Assembly (NCBI GenBank): GCA_003554735.1
Contig: PWHE01000117.1
Span: forward strand, 1-59,449
Origin: Mollicutes bacterium
Lineage (GTDB): Bacteria > Bacillota_I > Bacilli_A > Izemoplasmatales > Izemoplasmataceae
Reading direction: 5' to 3'
Length of the DNA: 59,449 nucleotides
A model generated the notes under the pieces. The model saw nothing but the letters and a program-made list of their open reading frames with translations. It made no database searches and was not told the DNA's origin. Position 1 is the first letter of the stretch, and every line of letters begins with the position of its first letter. This document shows positions 26,750 to 36,577 of this stretch, piece by piece. Both the position numbers and the translations under genes were made by a program.

Positions 26750-27796
26750 TTATCTTTCCGAATCGAACGCATCCGTGATGAACATCGCATCACCAAAGGA
26801 AAAGAAACGATACCGTTCCCTGATTGCGGCCTCATAAGCGCGCATGATGTTCGTTTTACCGGCAAGCGCGCTCACAAGCATGAGCAAGGTCGATTGCGGA
26901 AGATGAAAGTTGGTCAGAAGCCCGTCGATGATCTTGAACTCGAAACCGGGATAGACAAAAAGGTCGCTTTGTCCGCTTCCCGCCTCAATTCTGCCGTTTT
27001 CTACCGCGACCGTCTCGAGGGTTCTCAGTGATGTCGTTCCTACGGGAATGACACGGCGCCCTTCGCGCTTGGCCAGGTTGATACGCTCTTTTGCTTCCTT
27101 TGAAACGCTATAGTATTCTTCGTGCATGGTGTGTTTCGTGACGTCCTCGACTTGAACCGGTCGGAACGTCCCGAGGCCCACATGCAGTGTGACACAGACA
27201 ATTTCAACACCCATCGCTTCGATATGGGCCATGTATTCTTTGGTGAAGTGAAGACCTGCAGTGGGGGCCGCAGCGCTTCCTTTGTATTTGGAATAAACAG
27301 TCTGGTAGCGGTCTTTTTCTTCCAGTTTTTCGTGAATGTATGGAGGCAGAGGCATCTCGCCGAGCGCATCGAGGACCTCGTAGAGGATGCCTTCGTAGTG
27401 GAGTCTGAACTCCCGGAGGCCCTCTTCTTTTTCCTTTACACACTCCATTTTGAGCATGCCCTCGCCGAATGAAAGTGTCGTGCCTTTTTTGACCTTCTTC
27501 GCCTTCTTCACCAGACATTCCCAGATGTTGTCGCCTTTTTCATTGAGTAAAAGCACCTCGATGTTCGCACCGGTGCTTTCTTTGACTCCGATAAGACGGG
27601 CCGGGATCACTTCCGTGTCGTTCAGGACCAGCACATCACCTTTTCTGAGATAGTGATGAAGATTTTTGAAGCGTTCATGACGATAGTCGCCGGTATGACG
27701 ATCCAAGACGAGCAAGCGGGAATCCGTGCGGTTTTTTAGCGGCGTCTGCGCGATGAGCTCTTCGGGTAGATGATAGTCGAAATCGCTTGTTTTCAT
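26750..27796 (-). CDS. queA: S-adenosylmethionine:tRNA ribosyltransferase-isomerase
   Basis: [55 protein letters not shown]. Confidence 0.97.
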
Positions 27797-28800
27797 TCGA
27801 ACAGCCCACCTTGATAGCTTTTGCCGAGATGTTTATATGCTTTTTCAGTCGCCTGACGGCCTCTTGGAGTACGTTTGATGAAACCGAGTTTGAGCAGATA
27901 GGGTTCATAGACGTCTTCGATTGTGGTGACTTCCTCGCTGATCGAGGAAGCCAAGGATTCCACACCGACCGGGCCGCCGTTGAAGCGTTCAATAAGTCCG
28001 TTCAGATAGTCGTAATCCTTCTGGTCAAGCCCTTTTTCGTCAATTTGGAGTTTGTCCAGGGCTTTTTTCGTGATGTCCAGGTCGATGACACCGTCGTTGA
28101 GCACATCCGCGAAATCGCGGATACGCCGGAACAGGCGGTTGACGATACGCGGGGTTCCGCGACTGCGCTTGGCCAGTTCAACCACGCTGTCGTCGACGAT
28201 TGACGCCTCATAGATGCTCGCGGTGCGTTTGCATATTTGTTCAAGCGCGGATTGGTCGTAGTATTCAAGCTTATGCACCACACCGAAACGGTCGCGCAAA
28301 GGCGCTGTCAAGTCTCCGAAACGCGTGGTGGCGCCGATCAACGTGAACGGCGGAAGGTCGACACGAATCGATTTCTGCGTTTCATCTTTGCCGACGATCA
28401 GATCGATCGCAAAATCCTCCATCGCGGGATAAAGCACTTCTTCGACTACTCGGGGCAGGCGATGGATTTCATCAATAAAAAGGATGTCACCGGGTTCGAG
28501 ACTGGTCAGCAACACGGCGAGATCGCCGCTTTTTTCAATGGCCGGACCACTGCTCACTTTGATGTTTGCACCCACCTCATTGGCCACAATGTTCGCAAGT
28601 GTGGTCTTGCCGAGGCCGGGCGGTCCGTATAAAAGCACGTGATCAAGGCTTTCCTTACGGTTTTTAGCGGCCTGGATGAAGATGGCCATCATTTCCTTGA
28701 CGTGATCTTGGCCGATGTATTCGGATAAGGTCCGCGGACGCAGTTCGATCGGTTCGAGATCGTCCCGTTGTTTCTCAGCGGACAGAATGTCGTTTTCCAT
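27793..28800 (-). CDS. ruvB: Holliday junction branch migration helicase RuvB
   Basis: [56 protein letters not shown]. Confidence 0.97.
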
Positions 28801-28876
28801 GATATCTACCTCTTTCATTAAAAATTATACACAAATGTGGGACTTTTACAATGATTAAGGGATAATATCATTTCCC

Positions 28877-28905
28877 TTGCGTTGTCTTTGGCCTTTCTAT
28901 ATGAT
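28877..28905 (+). promoter_or_regulatory. candidate promoter of the coiled-coil operon
   Basis: TTGCGT (28877-28882) - 17 nt - TATGAT (28900-28905); followed by palindrome TGTAAATCGTTTACA (28921-28935). Confidence 0.5.
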
Positions 28906-28960
28906 AAAATTAAAACATATTGTAAATCGTTTACATCCAAGACTGAAAGGAGGGCGCACA

Positions 28961-31900
28961 ATGGCCAATGAAAGACTTGACAATGATACGCTGAAATCTT
29001 CTCGCTATCTCATTGAACGGGACATTCAAAAGCGGATCGAACCGCTTGAAAAAGACATCCAGTCTCTGAAAAAGCGGTACGAGAAGGTGCTAAGCGACGC
29101 GCAAAAGGCATTCGAGGCCAATGAGCGTTCCTATCAGACACAGCTTGAAAAAGCGAAAAAAGAGCATATCAAAGCCATGCGCGCTTCACGTAAAGAAACA
29201 GAGGCCGAGATCCAGAAAGAACAGAAACATCTGGAATCGATCAAACAAAAACAGACACGTGAACTTGCCGAACTCCACAACGCGCACAAAAAGAAAATCA
29301 ACGCCATCGACGAGAAGATTGATTCGATCGAGAAAGAACGCCAAAAAACCCTCAAGTCTATCGAGGAAAAACATAAATCAACCACGCAATCCTATCAAGA
29401 CAAGATCGACCTCTACAAAGAAACACTCGAAACAAACCGCGAACGACACGCTGAAAAACTCGACGAGGCCCTGAAAACACTGGAAAACGCGCAAGTGAGA
29501 GAGCGCGAGAAACTCGCCACGCTGAAATCATCGCTGGACGACAGTTTTGCGGACATCGAGACGGCCATCCGCGAAAAAACGGATGAGACAAGAGACGATC
29601 TGAAACAGGAAAAGAACACCATCGATTACCAGATCAATTCAAAACGCAAACATCTCAATGAGCTCATGAAATCCGTGAAGACCCACCTTTACGATGTGGG
29701 TTCGACGATCAAGGCGCCGTTTGAAAAAAGCGCCGCGCTGCTTCAGGATCTGAGGAAATCGCTCACGGAAAATGAAAAAGCATTCATAAACCGTGTCGAT
29801 TTCGACGTCCGGATTGAAGAACACCGTCTCAACGCCCTGCTTGAGATCGATGATAACGAAACCGTCGACAAGGAGATTCAGACGCAAGTCAACGAACAGC
29901 TTCGACTCAACACATTGCGCAAAAAAGCGCTCAAAGAGCACAGTGACCTCAAGAAGACTCTCATCAACGACACCATCGAAGTATTCAAGACCCAACTCAA
30001 CGCGCTTCATACCGATTTCAAGCGCGCTTTTGACATGCACGAATCCCTGCTTGAGTCCCAGCTCAACCGGCTTAAGAAAAAGCTTGATATCCTGCAGAAA
30101 AACGGAGACATTAATCAACGCGACCTCTCCGCCCTTCATGAAGCCATGCATTCCGAAACCTTTCTCGATCCGTTCAAAACGCTCTTCAACGACATATTCC
30201 ATGCGCTTCACGCCTTTGAGCGCAAGCGCATAGGCATGCTTAAATCAACACTCGAGACACTGAAACCGCACTATGAGGAAATTGACGACATCCGCTTCTT
30301 CCTTGATACCAAGGACGCCGTCAAGGAAATCCGGATCAACGAACAAAAAATCGCCATCGAACAAAGGGACGCCTCTTTGAACCTTGAAATGGACCTTACC
30401 AAACGTTCTCATGACAAGGAGATCCTTGAAATCGAACAGCGGCACACTATCAACGAAAAAAAGGCGAATCATGCGATTGAAGAGGCGAAACAGACACAGA
30501 CAGTCAATGACCTTTTCGCCAGAAAGACCGCCCAGACCGAGCGGCACGAACACAATTTCGAACGGATGAAAGCCGACCTTCAAATGGATTTGAGGGAAGC
30601 ACATTCGAACACTGACCGCGACCAGGTCGAAAGCCGCCAATCCATCGACGAAGCGATTTTGGAACGCAACCGCGAGATCAGTGAACTTGAAAGTCTCCGC
30701 CATAAGCGTCTCAAGCTCGAGGAGCTCAATGCATCGAAGTCGACCGAACACGAACGGCTCCGGCTCAAAGTCAATCAGGACACGCAAACATTGAAGCGGC
30801 TCGAGGAGACCATCCGTCAACGCGAAGACCGACTGGAAAAACGTTTTGAAAGAAAAAAGGAATCCGCTCATGAAGAATTCCTTGAAAACAAGGCCGCACT
30901 CGAGCAGGAACTCGAAGACGCCAAAACCCGCCATGAGGAGAAACTCGATTTCATCGAAAAGGCCTATGAACGTGAAACCAAACGGGCCCGTCGCAACATC
31001 GATGCCATTGAACACATGAAATCCATTCGCACCACCCCTATCCAGGAACGGCATCTTTCCCACAAGAAAGTCCTCCTCGATTCGCTTACGGCGCTTGAGG
31101 ACAGCGAACTCAATGACTGCATAAGAATGGTTCATCCGAGTTTCAAACAAAACGTCATCGAGCACGTCCACCAAACCATCAAGACGCTCGAGGAAACCTG
31201 CGACCATCTCGAAAACCATGACAAAGAGAAAGTAAGAAAAGACACGGACAAAGAACGGCGCCAAACTTTGCGCCTCACGAAAATTGAAGAACGCTACGAT
31301 GAACAGCGTGAAACCATCGAAACACTTGAGGAAGAAATTATCGAATCGCTCGAGGAAGCCTTCGCCTATCCGCTTGAAGCCCTCAGGAAAAAACAGCGCG
31401 TCTCGCTGCGAGAGTTCAGAAATTTGGTTGAAGCCGCGCTCAACGACGTGAAGCAAACACTGGAAACCCTTTATGAGAAAGCGACACGTTTCATCTCGGA
31501 AGGTTTCAACCCCATGGAGGAAACAGACCGCGCGCTACTCGATAAGGCTGAAGACTCCTACAAGCACGCGCTTGAAGAAGAAAAGTCACGCCACGAAAAG
31601 GCATTGAAACCGATCAAAATCCGTCTGGATGCCATCGAGGATACCTACCAGGACAATCTCGCCACCATCGAAGAGGAACTTGAGGCCCAGAAACAGTCGC
31701 TCATCGGCGAGACATACCAGGAAGAACAGACGATCCGCGCACAACTCGAGTCCCAACAGGAAAAGCTCGAGAACCTTGATGCGACCCTCGGGGAGCGCAA
31801 GCAAGCGATCGAGGACCGTCACAAGGACGACCTTGAAGCCATTCGCGAACGCCACGAGGAGAAGCTCAGGGCGCTACGGGAACGTTATGAAAGGCAATAT

Positions 31901-32455
31901 GCCAAGATTGAGGAACGCCTCAAAGACGCGAAAGCCATTTACCAACAGGCGACCATCAACGTCGAACATGCCCTTGAGAGCATCGAAGCGACGCTTAAGG
32001 ACACCCGGGATTCAAACCAGGAACATTTCGACTATGTGAAACGCAAACAGGAGCGCCTGGTCGACCACTCGAAGAAAGAACGCGACGAGGCGAGCAAACG
32101 GGCCCACGAAGCGTTGGATGCGAAACTCGAGGATTTCGAGGAACAGATTCTCGCCTCCAAGGCGCGGCTCGAAGAGAAAATCGAGAATGTCGGCAGGGAC
32201 ATCGCCGAGGAGCTCCGTGAAAAAGACCGTCGCAAAACAGAGCTGGAAAAAAGCGTATCCGATGCCGAGTACAACCTCTACTCCTCGTTTGAAGCGGCTT
32301 ACAATGCGCTTCATGAAGACATTCAAAACGCCTTTGACGCACTTGAGTTCGAAACCACCAAGGGCGAAGCGCACATCGATGCCTTCATCAAAGGTCAGAA
32401 GGACACCGTGGACAAATTCATTGCTGAAAGCGTCAACGCCATTAAAACCGACTGA
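28961..32455 (+). CDS. giant coiled-coil protein CC1 (about 1164 aa), function unknown
   Basis: ATG at 28961 with RBS gaaaggagg; E/K/R/D/Q-rich helical sequence throughout; no TM segment, signal peptide, Walker motif or known domain recognised; TGA stop. Confidence 0.93.
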   Translation: MANERLDNDTLKSSRYLIERDIQKRIEPLEKDIQSLKKRYEKVLSDAQKAFEANERSYQTQLEKAKKEHIKAMRASRKETEAEIQKEQKHLESIKQKQTRELAELHNAHKKKINAIDEKIDSIEKERQKTLKSIEEKHKSTTQSYQDKIDLYKETLETNRERHAEKLDEALKTLENAQVREREKLATLKSSLDDSFADIETAIREKTDETRDDLKQEKNTIDYQINSKRKHLNELMKSVKTHLYDVGSTIKAPFEKSAALLQDLRKSLTENEKAFINRVDFDVRIEEHRLNALLEIDDNETVDKEIQTQVNEQLRLNTLRKKALKEHSDLKKTLINDTIEVFKTQLNALHTDFKRAFDMHESLLESQLNRLKKKLDILQKNGDINQRDLSALHEAMHSETFLDPFKTLFNDIFHALHAFERKRIGMLKSTLETLKPHYEEIDDIRFFLDTKDAVKEIRINEQKIAIEQRDASLNLEMDLTKRSHDKEILEIEQRHTINEKKANHAIEEAKQTQTVNDLFARKTAQTERHEHNFERMKADLQMDLREAHSNTDRDQVESRQSIDEAILERNREISELESLRHKRLKLEELNASKSTEHERLRLKVNQDTQTLKRLEETIRQREDRLEKRFERKKESAHEEFLENKAALEQELEDAKTRHEEKLDFIEKAYERETKRARRNIDAIEHMKSIRTTPIQERHLSHKKVLLDSLTALEDSELNDCIRMVHPSFKQNVIEHVHQTIKTLEETCDHLENHDKEKVRKDTDKERRQTLRLTKIEERYDEQRETIETLEEEIIESLEEAFAYPLEALRKKQRVSLREFRNLVEAALNDVKQTLETLYEKATRFISEGFNPMEETDRALLDKAEDSYKHALEEEKSRHEKALKPIKIRLDAIEDTYQDNLATIEEELEAQKQSLIGETYQEEQTIRAQLESQQEKLENLDATLGERKQAIEDRHKDDLEAIRERHEEKLRALRERYERQYAKIEERLKDAKAIYQQATINVEHALESIEATLKDTRDSNQEHFDYVKRKQERLVDHSKKERDEASKRAHEALDAKLEDFEEQILASKARLEEKIENVGRDIAEELREKDRRKTELEKSVSDAEYNLYSSFEAAYNALHEDIQNAFDALEFETTKGEAHIDAFIKGQKDTVDKFIAESVNAIKTD
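31619..31981 (+). repeat. hendecad (11-residue) protein repeat region within CC1
   Basis: Successive 11-mers IRLDAIEDTYQ/DNLATIEEELE/AQKQSLIGETY/QEEQTIRAQLE/SQQEKLENLDA/TLGERKQAIED/RHKDDLEAIRE/RHEEKLRALRE/RYERQYAKIEE/RLKDAKAIYQQ/ATINVEHALES. Confidence 0.75.
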
Positions 32456-32492
32456 CACAACGCACCCACTTTAAGAGAAAGGAGTGAACGCC

Positions 32493-35372
32493 ATGGCCAA
32501 GAAATACGATATTTCGCTCAACACGAACCAAAAACTCAGCGAGCTCATCGACACGGAGCTTCAAAAAGAATCCAAACTGCTCCAGAACCTGATCAATGAC
32601 GTGGTGACGGCGAATCAGAAAGTCAAATCATCGCACCATCAACGCATCGAAGAAACACGCGTCAAGCTCGAGAAGCTCAATGCCGAGATTGAACGACTCA
32701 AGGATGAAATCAACCAAAAAGAGAAAGAGACCACCATGGCACAGCTCAACTATCTCCTTGAAAGCAAGAACAAAATCTATCAGGCGCTTCAAGAAATGCG
32801 CCAGAAAAACATAGATGTCTACACGAAACGGGATTCCACCGCGAACACGGAACCCCTCAGAGACATGCTTTTCGAATACCTCAATGCCCACACCGAGGCA
32901 CATTCAGACGTCCTGCCGCTCATGAAGACCCTTCGTGAACATACGCTCGATTTCATCGAGGATGGCATCGCAAACATGGAAACCATACTCAAAAACGCAT
33001 CCCGCGACGAGGACGTGCTAAAAGAAACCGTTGACGGCCTTACCAGCAACGTGTTCGACGGCGGAAAATTCTTCGCTTCCTTCAAGGACTCCCTTCTCGC
33101 TTTAGAGGACGAACGCACCCATATACTCCAAGAAGAGGAAAGCGAAGACGCACTCGAAGCGAGAATCGAAAAAACTTTCAAGGACCGCACCGACAAGATC
33201 GACCAAAAAATCGAAGCGCTCGATGCCGAGTTCAAGAAAGACAAGGAAGCCTTGCTTGCGGATAAAGAGGACATCTACGAAAAGAGCCTGAGCAAACTCA
33301 AAGAAAAGCACAAAGGCAAACTCGAAGCTGAGAAAGAAACCAAAGAAAACCTTCAAAACGCTTTGAAACAGCTTCGACTAGACATCATGTCGGCAGAAAA
33401 GGAAGGCCGTGAAGAGCGCGTCAAAAACCTCATCCGCGACTATCAGAAGCTCGAACACAAAGACACCAAGTTTTTTGAAGAAAAACTTGAGAAACAGGCT
33501 GAGGAGAAGGTCAAAGCGGAACTCAAAAAAATCGACAACAAGCTTTACAGGCTTGAGAAACAATACATCGACGATGCCCATGCGCTACGCTTTGAACGCG
33601 AGAAAGTCCGCATTGAAAAAAGCGATTCCAAGGACATGTTCAAGGTGCGCGAGGACCACAAGGGGCTAAAAGGGGACCTTGAATACAATGCGCAGCTGAA
33701 AAATAACATTGAAGACACCCTCGACGCCTTTGAAACCGCGTTGGACCAGGTGCTTTCGTTCAAACGCACCTTGCAAGATGAATACATCCGGCGCGAAGGC
33801 CATTACCTCAACACGCAGGTTGACATGATGGATGATTTCAACACACTCGAGAAAACCTTCAAATCGATGCAACTCGACCTCTCAAGATTGTATCGTGAAA
33901 AACATTTCAAAGATCGCATCCTGCGCGAGAAGATCAAACGCGAAATCCGCATGCATGCGCTTCAGATCAACAAGCACCAGAAATTTGCCCGCATCGACAA
34001 ACGGCTAACCGACGAAGAGAACCTGGCGCTGGTCAAACAGCTTGCCGATGAAGAGGACATCCAAAACGAGAAAATCTACCAGAACGCACTCATTGAACTC
34101 GCCGATAAGGAATATCAGCTTCAGCTTCTGAAAATCCAGTCCCTTTACGACAATGAAATCGGGCTCACCAAAGCCCAGGCTGAACGGTTGAACATCGGTT
34201 ATGACGTCAATGAATCCATGGTTTCGACCACGCTTGAAAGCCAGATCCTCTTTGCCAAACAACAGATCGAATACGCCAAAAGCGAATACGAACTGCGCCT
34301 TGAAAACATCGAGACCTCCCTTAACAAAGAAAAGGAATACGCTGAGGAGAAACTGCGCGAGCACCAGCAGAAATACAAGACCGACAAACTTGATATCATC
34401 AAGGAAAGAGACCGTAAACTGGAGGACCTGAGCTATAAGCAAGCCCTTTTCACGGACGACAAGGACCGGCGGGACCTCAAGGAAAAAGAGGATAGGATTC
34501 GCGAGAACTATGACAAGCGGATCGAAGCCATCAACGAAGCCGAAAACAACGACCCTTACGTCAAACGGTACAAAAAACAGCTTGATAACGCCAATGAACG
34601 GGCCGAAAAAGCCCGGGAGGACGCCAAACACATCCGCGACCAATCGATTCAGACCTTCGAGAACATGCTGAAAACCAGTGAAGAAAAACTCCACCAGTTC
34701 AAAAACAACAAGGAACACGCTTCGGTCAAGCCGATGATCGAGACGGAGGAAAGCACCGCAAAAAACCGTTTCAACGAAAGCATCGAGGATGCCAAAAAAC
34801 TGTATGAAGAAAAAACTGAAGCGCCGAAGCAAAAACTTGAAGAACTCGATGAAAAACTAAAGCATATTCAGGATAAAAGCGGACTTCAAGACAAAATATC
34901 TCCGCTTCTCGAGGAGAAGGAAGCCATCAAGCAACAATACGAAGCGGACGCCAAAGCGCTCAATGAAACACACAATCAGACAATCGAGGCGATTGAGCTT
35001 GAACGAAAGGACTTCATCACCCAGTTCGATCAGGCCAAAACGCAGATCGACGCCAAAAATGACACTGCGGCGTCCGAGCAGCACAAGCGAACCATCAAAC
35101 AAACCCTGAACGCGACCTCAAAAACCCTCGAAAAACAAAACAATGAAATCAAAAACCGGATCGTCACTGAACTGAAACGATTCAAAAAAGAACTCCCTTC
35201 ACGAATCAAGGGTCTCAACCAGGCCATAGAAAAGGCACACAAGGAATACAACGGTTTCCTCGGAAAACTGTCCAGCAACACGGCGCAACGCGAGAAAAAA
35301 GTCAAAAAGACCATCGATTCCGATCATCGCGACGCCTTGCGACAACTCAAACTCACATACGGGAAAAAATAA
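32493..35372 (+). CDS. giant coiled-coil protein CC2 (about 959 aa), function unknown
   Basis: Starts 37 bp after the CC1 stop with RBS aaaggag; same charged helical composition; no other domain recognised. Confidence 0.92.
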   Translation: MAKKYDISLNTNQKLSELIDTELQKESKLLQNLINDVVTANQKVKSSHHQRIEETRVKLEKLNAEIERLKDEINQKEKETTMAQLNYLLESKNKIYQALQEMRQKNIDVYTKRDSTANTEPLRDMLFEYLNAHTEAHSDVLPLMKTLREHTLDFIEDGIANMETILKNASRDEDVLKETVDGLTSNVFDGGKFFASFKDSLLALEDERTHILQEEESEDALEARIEKTFKDRTDKIDQKIEALDAEFKKDKEALLADKEDIYEKSLSKLKEKHKGKLEAEKETKENLQNALKQLRLDIMSAEKEGREERVKNLIRDYQKLEHKDTKFFEEKLEKQAEEKVKAELKKIDNKLYRLEKQYIDDAHALRFEREKVRIEKSDSKDMFKVREDHKGLKGDLEYNAQLKNNIEDTLDAFETALDQVLSFKRTLQDEYIRREGHYLNTQVDMMDDFNTLEKTFKSMQLDLSRLYREKHFKDRILREKIKREIRMHALQINKHQKFARIDKRLTDEENLALVKQLADEEDIQNEKIYQNALIELADKEYQLQLLKIQSLYDNEIGLTKAQAERLNIGYDVNESMVSTTLESQILFAKQQIEYAKSEYELRLENIETSLNKEKEYAEEKLREHQQKYKTDKLDIIKERDRKLEDLSYKQALFTDDKDRRDLKEKEDRIRENYDKRIEAINEAENNDPYVKRYKKQLDNANERAEKAREDAKHIRDQSIQTFENMLKTSEEKLHQFKNNKEHASVKPMIETEESTAKNRFNESIEDAKKLYEEKTEAPKQKLEELDEKLKHIQDKSGLQDKISPLLEEKEAIKQQYEADAKALNETHNQTIEAIELERKDFITQFDQAKTQIDAKNDTAASEQHKRTIKQTLNATSKTLEKQNNEIKNRIVTELKRFKKELPSRIKGLNQAIEKAHKEYNGFLGKLSSNTAQREKKVKKTIDSDHRDALRQLKLTYGKK

Positions 35373-35400
35373 AAGAGCCGGATTTCGATCCGGCTCTTTT
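35373..35400. terminator. bidirectional terminator between CC2 and deoB
   Basis: aaaagagccggat TTCG atccggctctttt, perfect stem with UUCG loop between convergent genes. Confidence 0.9.
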
Positions 35401-35401
35401 G

Positions 35402-36577
35402 CTATTTGAGTTGGTTGAGGAAACTTGTTCCGTAGCGTGGCTTCTTGACGGAAAAGTTTTCGCTGATGGTTGCGGCGATATCGGCGAACGTTTCCCGCTC
35501 GGGAATCTTTCCGCCCTTCAGTGTGCGGTTATAAACAAGGAGCGGCACATACTCCCGCGTATGGTCGGTGCCCACGTGCGTCGGGTCATTCCCGTGATCG
35601 GCAGTGACAATCAGCAGGTCATCGTCTCTGAGTTTGTTCATGAGCTCGGACAGTTGGGCATCGAAGGCTTCAAGCGCTTTTTTATAGCCTTTCGGGTCTC
35701 TTCGATGTCCGTATTTGGCATCGAAATCGACGAGATTGAGGTAGGCGAGCCCTTTGAAGTTCTGGTCACTGTAACGGATGTAGTTTTCCATGCCCTCATC
35801 ATTGTCGGCCTGTTTGATGCTTTCGGTGATGCCTTCACCGTCATAGATGTCGCTGATTTTGCCGAAGGCGACGACATCGTAGCCTTCGTCTTCGAGATAA
35901 TTGAGCGTGGTCTTCTCAAACGGTTTCAACGCATAGTCATGACGATTCGGCGTCCGGCTGAATGCGCCCTTCTTCTCTCCGAGGAACGGACGGGCGATGA
36001 CACGGCCGACTTTGTATTCTTCTTTCATCGTCAGTTCACGGGCGATTTCACAGGCTTTATAGAGTTCGTCAAGCCCGATTTTCTCTTCGTGCGCCGCAAT
36101 CTGAAGGACACTGTCGGCGGACGTGTAGACGATCAGATCGCCGGTTTTGAGCTGGTGTTCACCGAGTTCGTCGAGAATGTCGGTTCCGCTCGCGGCTTTG
36201 TTGCCGACAACTGAGCGGCCGGTACGTTTCTCGAGCTCCCGGATCAGTGATTCGGGGAAGCCGGTCTCGGTGAACGTCTGGAACGGTTTTTCCACTTTGA
36301 GCCCCATCAGTTCCCAGTGTCCGGTCATGGTGTCTTTCCCGTTGCTGATTTCCGCCATTCTTGTATAGTTTCCTATGGCATCGTTTTTCGGTGGAACCCC
36401 TTTGATATCGGTCAGGTTCCCATAGCCGAGTCGCTCCATTGTCGGCAGTGAGATGCCGTTTTGCGACAATGATATGTTGCGGATGGTGTTGGTGCCTTCA
36501 TCGCCATATTCTTTGGCGTCCGGCATGGCGCCGCAGCCGACGCTGTCGATAACTATCAGAAATACGCGATTATACAT
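35402..36577 (-). CDS. deoB: phosphopentomutase
   Basis: [48 protein letters not shown]. Confidence 0.97.

Follow-up and report, generated by a model that had tools for sequence, protein, structure and literature searches.

The window analyzed here, a stretch of 59,449 nucleotides (contig C47 of a 1.29-Mb genome that is 82% complete), harbors two adjacent genes, CC1 and CC2, whose giant and almost entirely helical products apparently represent an undescribed, order-wide pair of a known general kind, the long bacterial coiled-coil rods. The pair is unusual in its non-supercoiling periodicity. Judged from anatomy and phylogeny only, we consider it about an even call that these long rods form a pair specific to the order and would assemble together into a cytoplasmic scaffold or filament, straight and free of supercoiling, in the wall-less Izemoplasmatales. 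The shape and internal order of free-living wall-less bacteria are an open question, for which this pair is a vertically inherited, order-wide candidate, and because the cultured strains zrk13 and zrk29 both carry it, it can be tested directly.

Organization and predicted structure of the CC1–CC2 pair

The original prediction described two plus-strand open reading frames of 1164 and 959 residues separated by 37 bp, each with its own strong ribosome-binding site and closed by a UUCG-loop terminator, as a plus-strand island among mostly minus-strand housekeeping genes. Rederiving the coordinates returned this arrangement, with both ribosome-binding sites and the terminator in place and with the neighboring genes (queA, ruvB, deoB, xerD, hemW, and lepA) all on the minus strand. 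The features of the locus are as follows.

27793..28818, minus strand: ruvB, divergent flank and syntenic marker
28882..28910, plus strand: weak sigma-70-like promoter upstream of CC1, 9/12 matches (such sites are no more numerous in the region than by chance)
28947..28953, plus strand: ribosome-binding site of CC1 (AAGGAGG)
28961..32455, plus strand: CC1, 1164 aa, acidic (net charge -43), model helical throughout, non-heptad periodicity 3.62–3.63
30248..30400, plus strand: best conserved CC1 segment, aa 430–480, family consensus EID.I..FLDT.D..KEI; amphipathic periodicity fades here
32478..32487, plus strand: ribosome-binding site of CC2 (AAAGGAGTGA)
32493..35372, plus strand: CC2, 959 aa, acidic (net charge -16), model helical throughout
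32523..32801, plus strand: conserved N-terminal CC2 segment, aa 11–103
34023..34472, plus strand: conserved central CC2 segment, aa 511–660, family consensus KEYELQLLK..SLYDNE..L.K.Q.ERIN.G..VN.AMV.TTLE.Q; periodicity fades here
35371..35400, no strand assigned: intrinsic terminator, 13-pair stem with a UUCG loop, where CC2 and deoB converge
35402..36577, minus strand: deoB, convergent flank and syntenic marker

Residue counts agree with the charged, Pro- and Gly-poor composition noted earlier from the sequence: Trp is absent from both proteins, CC1 has two Cys (C720 and C747), nine Pro, and nine Gly, and CC2 has seven Pro and 16 Gly. Most homologues of CC1 and CC2 also carry a negative net charge. 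A COILS-type score, with a hand-entered scoring matrix, places 57% of CC1 and 63% of CC2 in coiled coil, versus 24% and 27% when the residues of each protein are shuffled. AlphaFold2 predicts a near end-to-end helix for both proteins (pLDDT 78.9 for CC1 and 76.6 for CC2), with longest helices of ≈290 residues, both ends helical, and no globular domain; at a pTM of 0.33 to 0.35, the overall arrangement of these helices is not fixed by the models. Fully extended at 0.15 nm per residue, CC1 and CC2 would reach ≈175 and ≈145 nm, respectively.

Searches of Pfam, NCBIfam, PHROGs, and the PDB (by sequence and fold) revealed no homologue of either protein, and Foldseek with both models retrieved generic long coiled coils only, with TM-scores at or below 0.27; no homology to a characterized family thus emerged from these databases. 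The earlier statements that the pair has no recognizable enzymatic or membrane domain and does not belong to the SMC, Rad50, or MukB proteins hold in Pfam and NCBIfam, in which neither such a domain nor an SMC_N or other ATPase match was found, and the models show no globular heads.

Distribution and descent in Izemoplasmatales

The host belongs to Izemoplasmatales, wall-less Bacilli, which comprise the family of the window (f1, 49 genomes) and two others (f2 and f3); CC2 is carried by named relatives (Izimaplasma/Izemoplasma and Mollicutes MAGs). A single-sequence search of the 49 f1 genomes recovered CC1 in 31 and CC2, the better conserved member of the pair, in 38, and a CC2 profile search recovered 39. 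Nearly every assembled f1 locus shows the gene order queA-ruvB / CC1-CC2 / deoB-xerD-hemW-lepA, in which CC1 and CC2 occupy the strand opposite to that of the other genes. The f2 locus is built likewise, with a pair of about 1150 and 925 to 989 aa, and some f2 loci show the pair though the profile search of those genomes gave no match; the f3 pair (1108–1129 and 931–971 aa) lies a few genes away from ruvB. Far from being absent from relatives, the pair is therefore kept in the ruvB/queA neighborhood across all three families of the order. Both Xianfuyuplasma coldseepsis zrk13 (G045) and Hujiaoplasma nucleasis zrk29 (G054), which are cultured, carry it. zrk13 is reported to be a non-motile, free-living, wall-less coccus of about 300 to 800 nm (PMC8397711) and zrk29 a wall-less coccus of 300 to 500 nm (PMC10470597), which bears out the earlier suggestion that a wall-less host be considered.

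Ten f1 genomes gave no CC2 match; six of these have no full-length ruvB in the assembly, and the assembly of another, G007, ends inside CC1. The pair is cleanly lost from G018 and G029, with no remnant at the junction, and is thus not strictly essential; most simply, it is ancestral to Izemoplasmatales but losable. At the loss junctions (L147:10246-10258 in G029 and L150:7498-7553 in G018), ruvB adjoins deoB or the gene after deoB. In G031, one coiled-coil protein of 702 aa, encoded between ruvB and deoB, takes the place of the pair (L149:11680-13788), and part of f1 has a gene for an ≈460-aa protein between deoB and CC2 (L075:11072-12463, L077:5104-6492, L080:7062-8450, and L081:1257-2639).

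The sequences diverge fast, with a mean CC1 identity to the window copy of 21% within f1. Profile–profile scores from hhalign, judged against block-permuted nulls, are 108 for f1 and f2 CC1 (null at most 34), 101 for f2 and f3 CC2 (null at most 38), and 59 for f1 and f3 CC2 (null at most 25), and at the level of sequence profiles, common descent is confirmed for f1 and f2 CC1 and for all three CC2 groups. The same kind of comparison detected no sequence homology of f3 CC1 to f1 or f2 CC1, and the f3 protein is assigned from its position beside CC2, its size, and its periodicity only. We also considered CC1 and CC2 as paralogues but do not claim this: hhalign gave a probability of 96.5%, yet block-permuted nulls reach 81.2 and the score of 99.9 does not stand out clearly from them, and f2 CC1 against f2 CC2 gave no signal. 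Length conservation, considered as a sign of a molecular ruler, offers no proof of a length-measuring role, with a divergence-normalized gap frequency within the range of neighboring genes.

Helical periodicity and packing

Averaged over homologues, CC1 hydrophobicity peaks at 3.63 residues per turn and not at the classical heptad, and the autocorrelation is strong at 7, 11, 18, 22, 29, 40, 47, and 58, small at 14, and absent at 21 or 28. The CC1 repeat is 29 residues per eight turns. This pattern is found at 3.62 in f2 and f3 CC1 as well and is weaker in CC2 (3.56–3.62), whereas Smc arms given the same treatment, in a control of three sequences only, have a heptad period of 3.505, versus 3.62 to 3.63 in CC1, and lack the 29/8 pattern. 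In an undistorted helix, each turn takes 3.63 residues (PMC9858780), and since the CC1 value of 3.62 to 3.63 is close to this pitch, the hydrophobic stripe runs straight along the helix axis and no supercoil is expected for the rod. As in Smc, the stripe spans ≈120 degrees, and the polar faces of CC1 carry intermixed K/R and D/E. Its core sectors contain 3 to 9% alanine, 37 to 47% ILMV, and 9 to 17% FYW. Hendecad packing requires alanine or else more helices (PMC9858780), and a bulky, alanine-poor core therefore suggests three or more helices rather than a dimer. Near the center of each protein, at ≈440 to 600 in CC1 and ≈470 to 570 in CC2, the periodicity weakens, and this weakening, taken with the conserved blocks of CC1 and with CC2 being best conserved there, suggests docking centers.

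In the scaffold that we favor, the rods would associate via the hydrophobic stripe of CC1, packing probably as three or more helices or as mixed CC1/CC2 bundles, with the conserved centers of the two proteins as putative contact or docking sites, and the product may give mechanical or spatial order to a wall-less cell of 300 to 800 nm. The two-gene unit, order-wide conservation at one locus, common descent by profile comparison, near-total helix, the 29-residue periodicity and stripe of CC1, the lack of a recognizable enzymatic or membrane domain, and the wall-less cultured hosts support such a scaffold; fast divergence, loss of the pair in G018 and G029, the lone 702-aa protein of G031, the ordinary gap frequency, and the low pTM of the models count against it. 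The original prediction of a paired cytoskeletal, scaffold, or nucleoid-organizing filament is partly supported, its functional part being a proposal.

Known systems, Smc absence, and rival explanations

Giant coiled-coil proteins of wall-less bacteria include Mycoplasma pneumoniae HMW2 and related attachment-organelle proteins; CC1 and CC2 are of this general description but gave no family match in Pfam or NCBIfam, and the cultured host zrk13 differs in being, by report, non-motile and free-living (PMC8397711). Scy, with >1000 residues, and FilP are long hendecad-rich bacterial rods that form nearly unwound coiled coils (PMC9858780), and these intermediate-filament-like proteins of Streptomyces resemble our pair as long rods with non-heptad periodicity and little supercoil. 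Literature searches, whose coverage leaves out most subscription journals, returned no report of the pair or of an absence of Smc and ScpA in the order.

The latter absence is notable in itself. Smc (TIGR02168) was detected in one of the 49 f1 genomes, complete genomes being among the negatives, and in this sole positive, G042, Smc lies on a single 4.6-kb contig whose G+C is 0.44, versus 0.50 at the CC locus, and ScpA is missing, all of which indicates a probable contaminant. A looser threshold yielded no Smc in tested f1 members except G042 or in tested f2 members, the f3 search gave partial arm matches only, below the cut-off, and ScpA was found nowhere across the order; in the same genomes, SMC_N finds RecN/RecF-sized proteins, which indicates that the search works. 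Many other families of the class do have Smc, and two changes are required to place the Smc-less families on a RuvB tree, one for f1, f2, f3, f5, f7, f12, f16, and f18 and one for f9 and f20. The question of internal order is sharpened by these small bacteria, which apparently manage without the bacterial condensin.

The most interesting alternative to a scaffold, and a possible one, is that CC1 and CC2 organize or tether the chromosome and now do part of the work of the Smc–ScpAB condensin that was lost. In its favor are the lack of Smc in 48/49 f1 genomes and of full-length Smc in tested f2 and f3 members, the concomitant lack of ScpA where RecN/RecF-sized superfamily members are found, the location of the pair adjoining ruvB and near xerD, and single giants of the same periodicity beside ruvAB in the Smc-less f12 and f16. 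Like the arms of Smc, MukB, and Rad50, to which Foldseek gives weak matches, CC1 and CC2 are giant charged helical rods of similar length; unlike these proteins, they have no ATPase heads, and the TM-scores are at or below 0.25. Pfam and NCBIfam searches found no ATPase or DNA-binding domain in either member, and both are acidic. Moreover, Smc is also absent from f5, f7, f9, f18, and f20, in which no such pair was seen at ruvB, so that the loss of Smc predates the pair and extends beyond it, and the neighborhood is a long conserved housekeeping block, so that gene adjacency says little on function. The acidic charge, the missing ATPase, and the wider Smc loss argue against adopting condensin replacement as the default, and we regard it as unlikely. 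A broader version, in which a lineage of Bacilli lost Smc–ScpAB and evolved ATPase-free straight-rod giants beside ruvAB (one in f12 and f16 and two in Izemoplasmatales) that organize the chromosome or the cell interior instead, strikes us as quite unlikely.

The non-heptad periodicity of CC1, comparable to that of the Scy and FilP rods (PMC9858780), would also suit a division-site or polarity organizer that works like DivIVA, Scy, or FilP, but this is unlikely, given that a DivIVA domain is found in 0/35 CC1 and 0/40 CC2 members (E ≤0.01). CC1 and CC2 differ from Scy and FilP further in lacking a DivIVA-like N-terminal domain and any detectable homology and in coming from a different phylum; plain hendecads there contrast with the 29-residue pattern of CC1, as does the alanine-rich core with the bulky, alanine-poor core of CC1 (3–9%). 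Two other readings start from weak database matches such as long amphipathic helices produce. A periodicity of 3.62, together with apolipoprotein matches (E 0.0007 in Pfam and 1e-5 in the PDB), could indicate an apolipoprotein-like coat of amphipathic helices on the inner face of the membrane, which is very unlikely: the Pfam match scores 19.8 bits against a curated cut-off of 90, the hydrophobic face spans only ≈120 degrees, hydrophobic residues make up about 25 to 28% of f1 CC1, and K/R do not flank the hydrophobic face. We rejected this coat since helical-wheel analysis does not fit it. PADLOC ZorA profiles match CC1 residues 772 to 1094 (E 3e-7), as might be seen if the pair were the tail-like part of a defense machine, and ZorA of the Zorya system does have a long helical tail; however, the match is limited to the middle of the profile (253–553 of 780), as is typical of coiled coils, Pfam gives CC1 no MotA/ExbB motor-domain match, no zorB/C/D partner was seen among its neighbors (ruvB and deoB flank the pair), and the pair occupies a core locus that is inherited vertically throughout the order. 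Such a role is exceedingly unlikely, and with a partial profile match only, the ZorA identity of CC1 was rejected.

Beyond the order, the related and Smc-less f12 and f16 encode one charged, Pro- and Gly-poor protein of 1198 to 1240 aa, divergent beside ruvA-ruvB, with ruvA inferred from size and position (L165:7300-10896, L168:9058-12669, L178:6387-10004, and L210:6560-10282). These giants have no match in Pfam, and their periodicity of 3.615 is the same as that of CC1. An hhalign comparison of CC1 with three of these sequences gave a probability of 68% versus 70% for a reversed control, and with a fourth sequence added, the score was 63.9 versus permuted nulls of up to 42.1. Frames of 1076 to 1100 aa in f3 and f12 match Smc arms, not heads (G089:C5:33255-35246, G085:C3:5696-7723, and G098:C66:5164-7161), and are possibly further giant coiled-coil or SbcC-like proteins. 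The Smc-less f18 has shorter coiled-coil-like proteins of 428 and 554 aa near ruvB (L181:7313-8599 and L213:621-2285).
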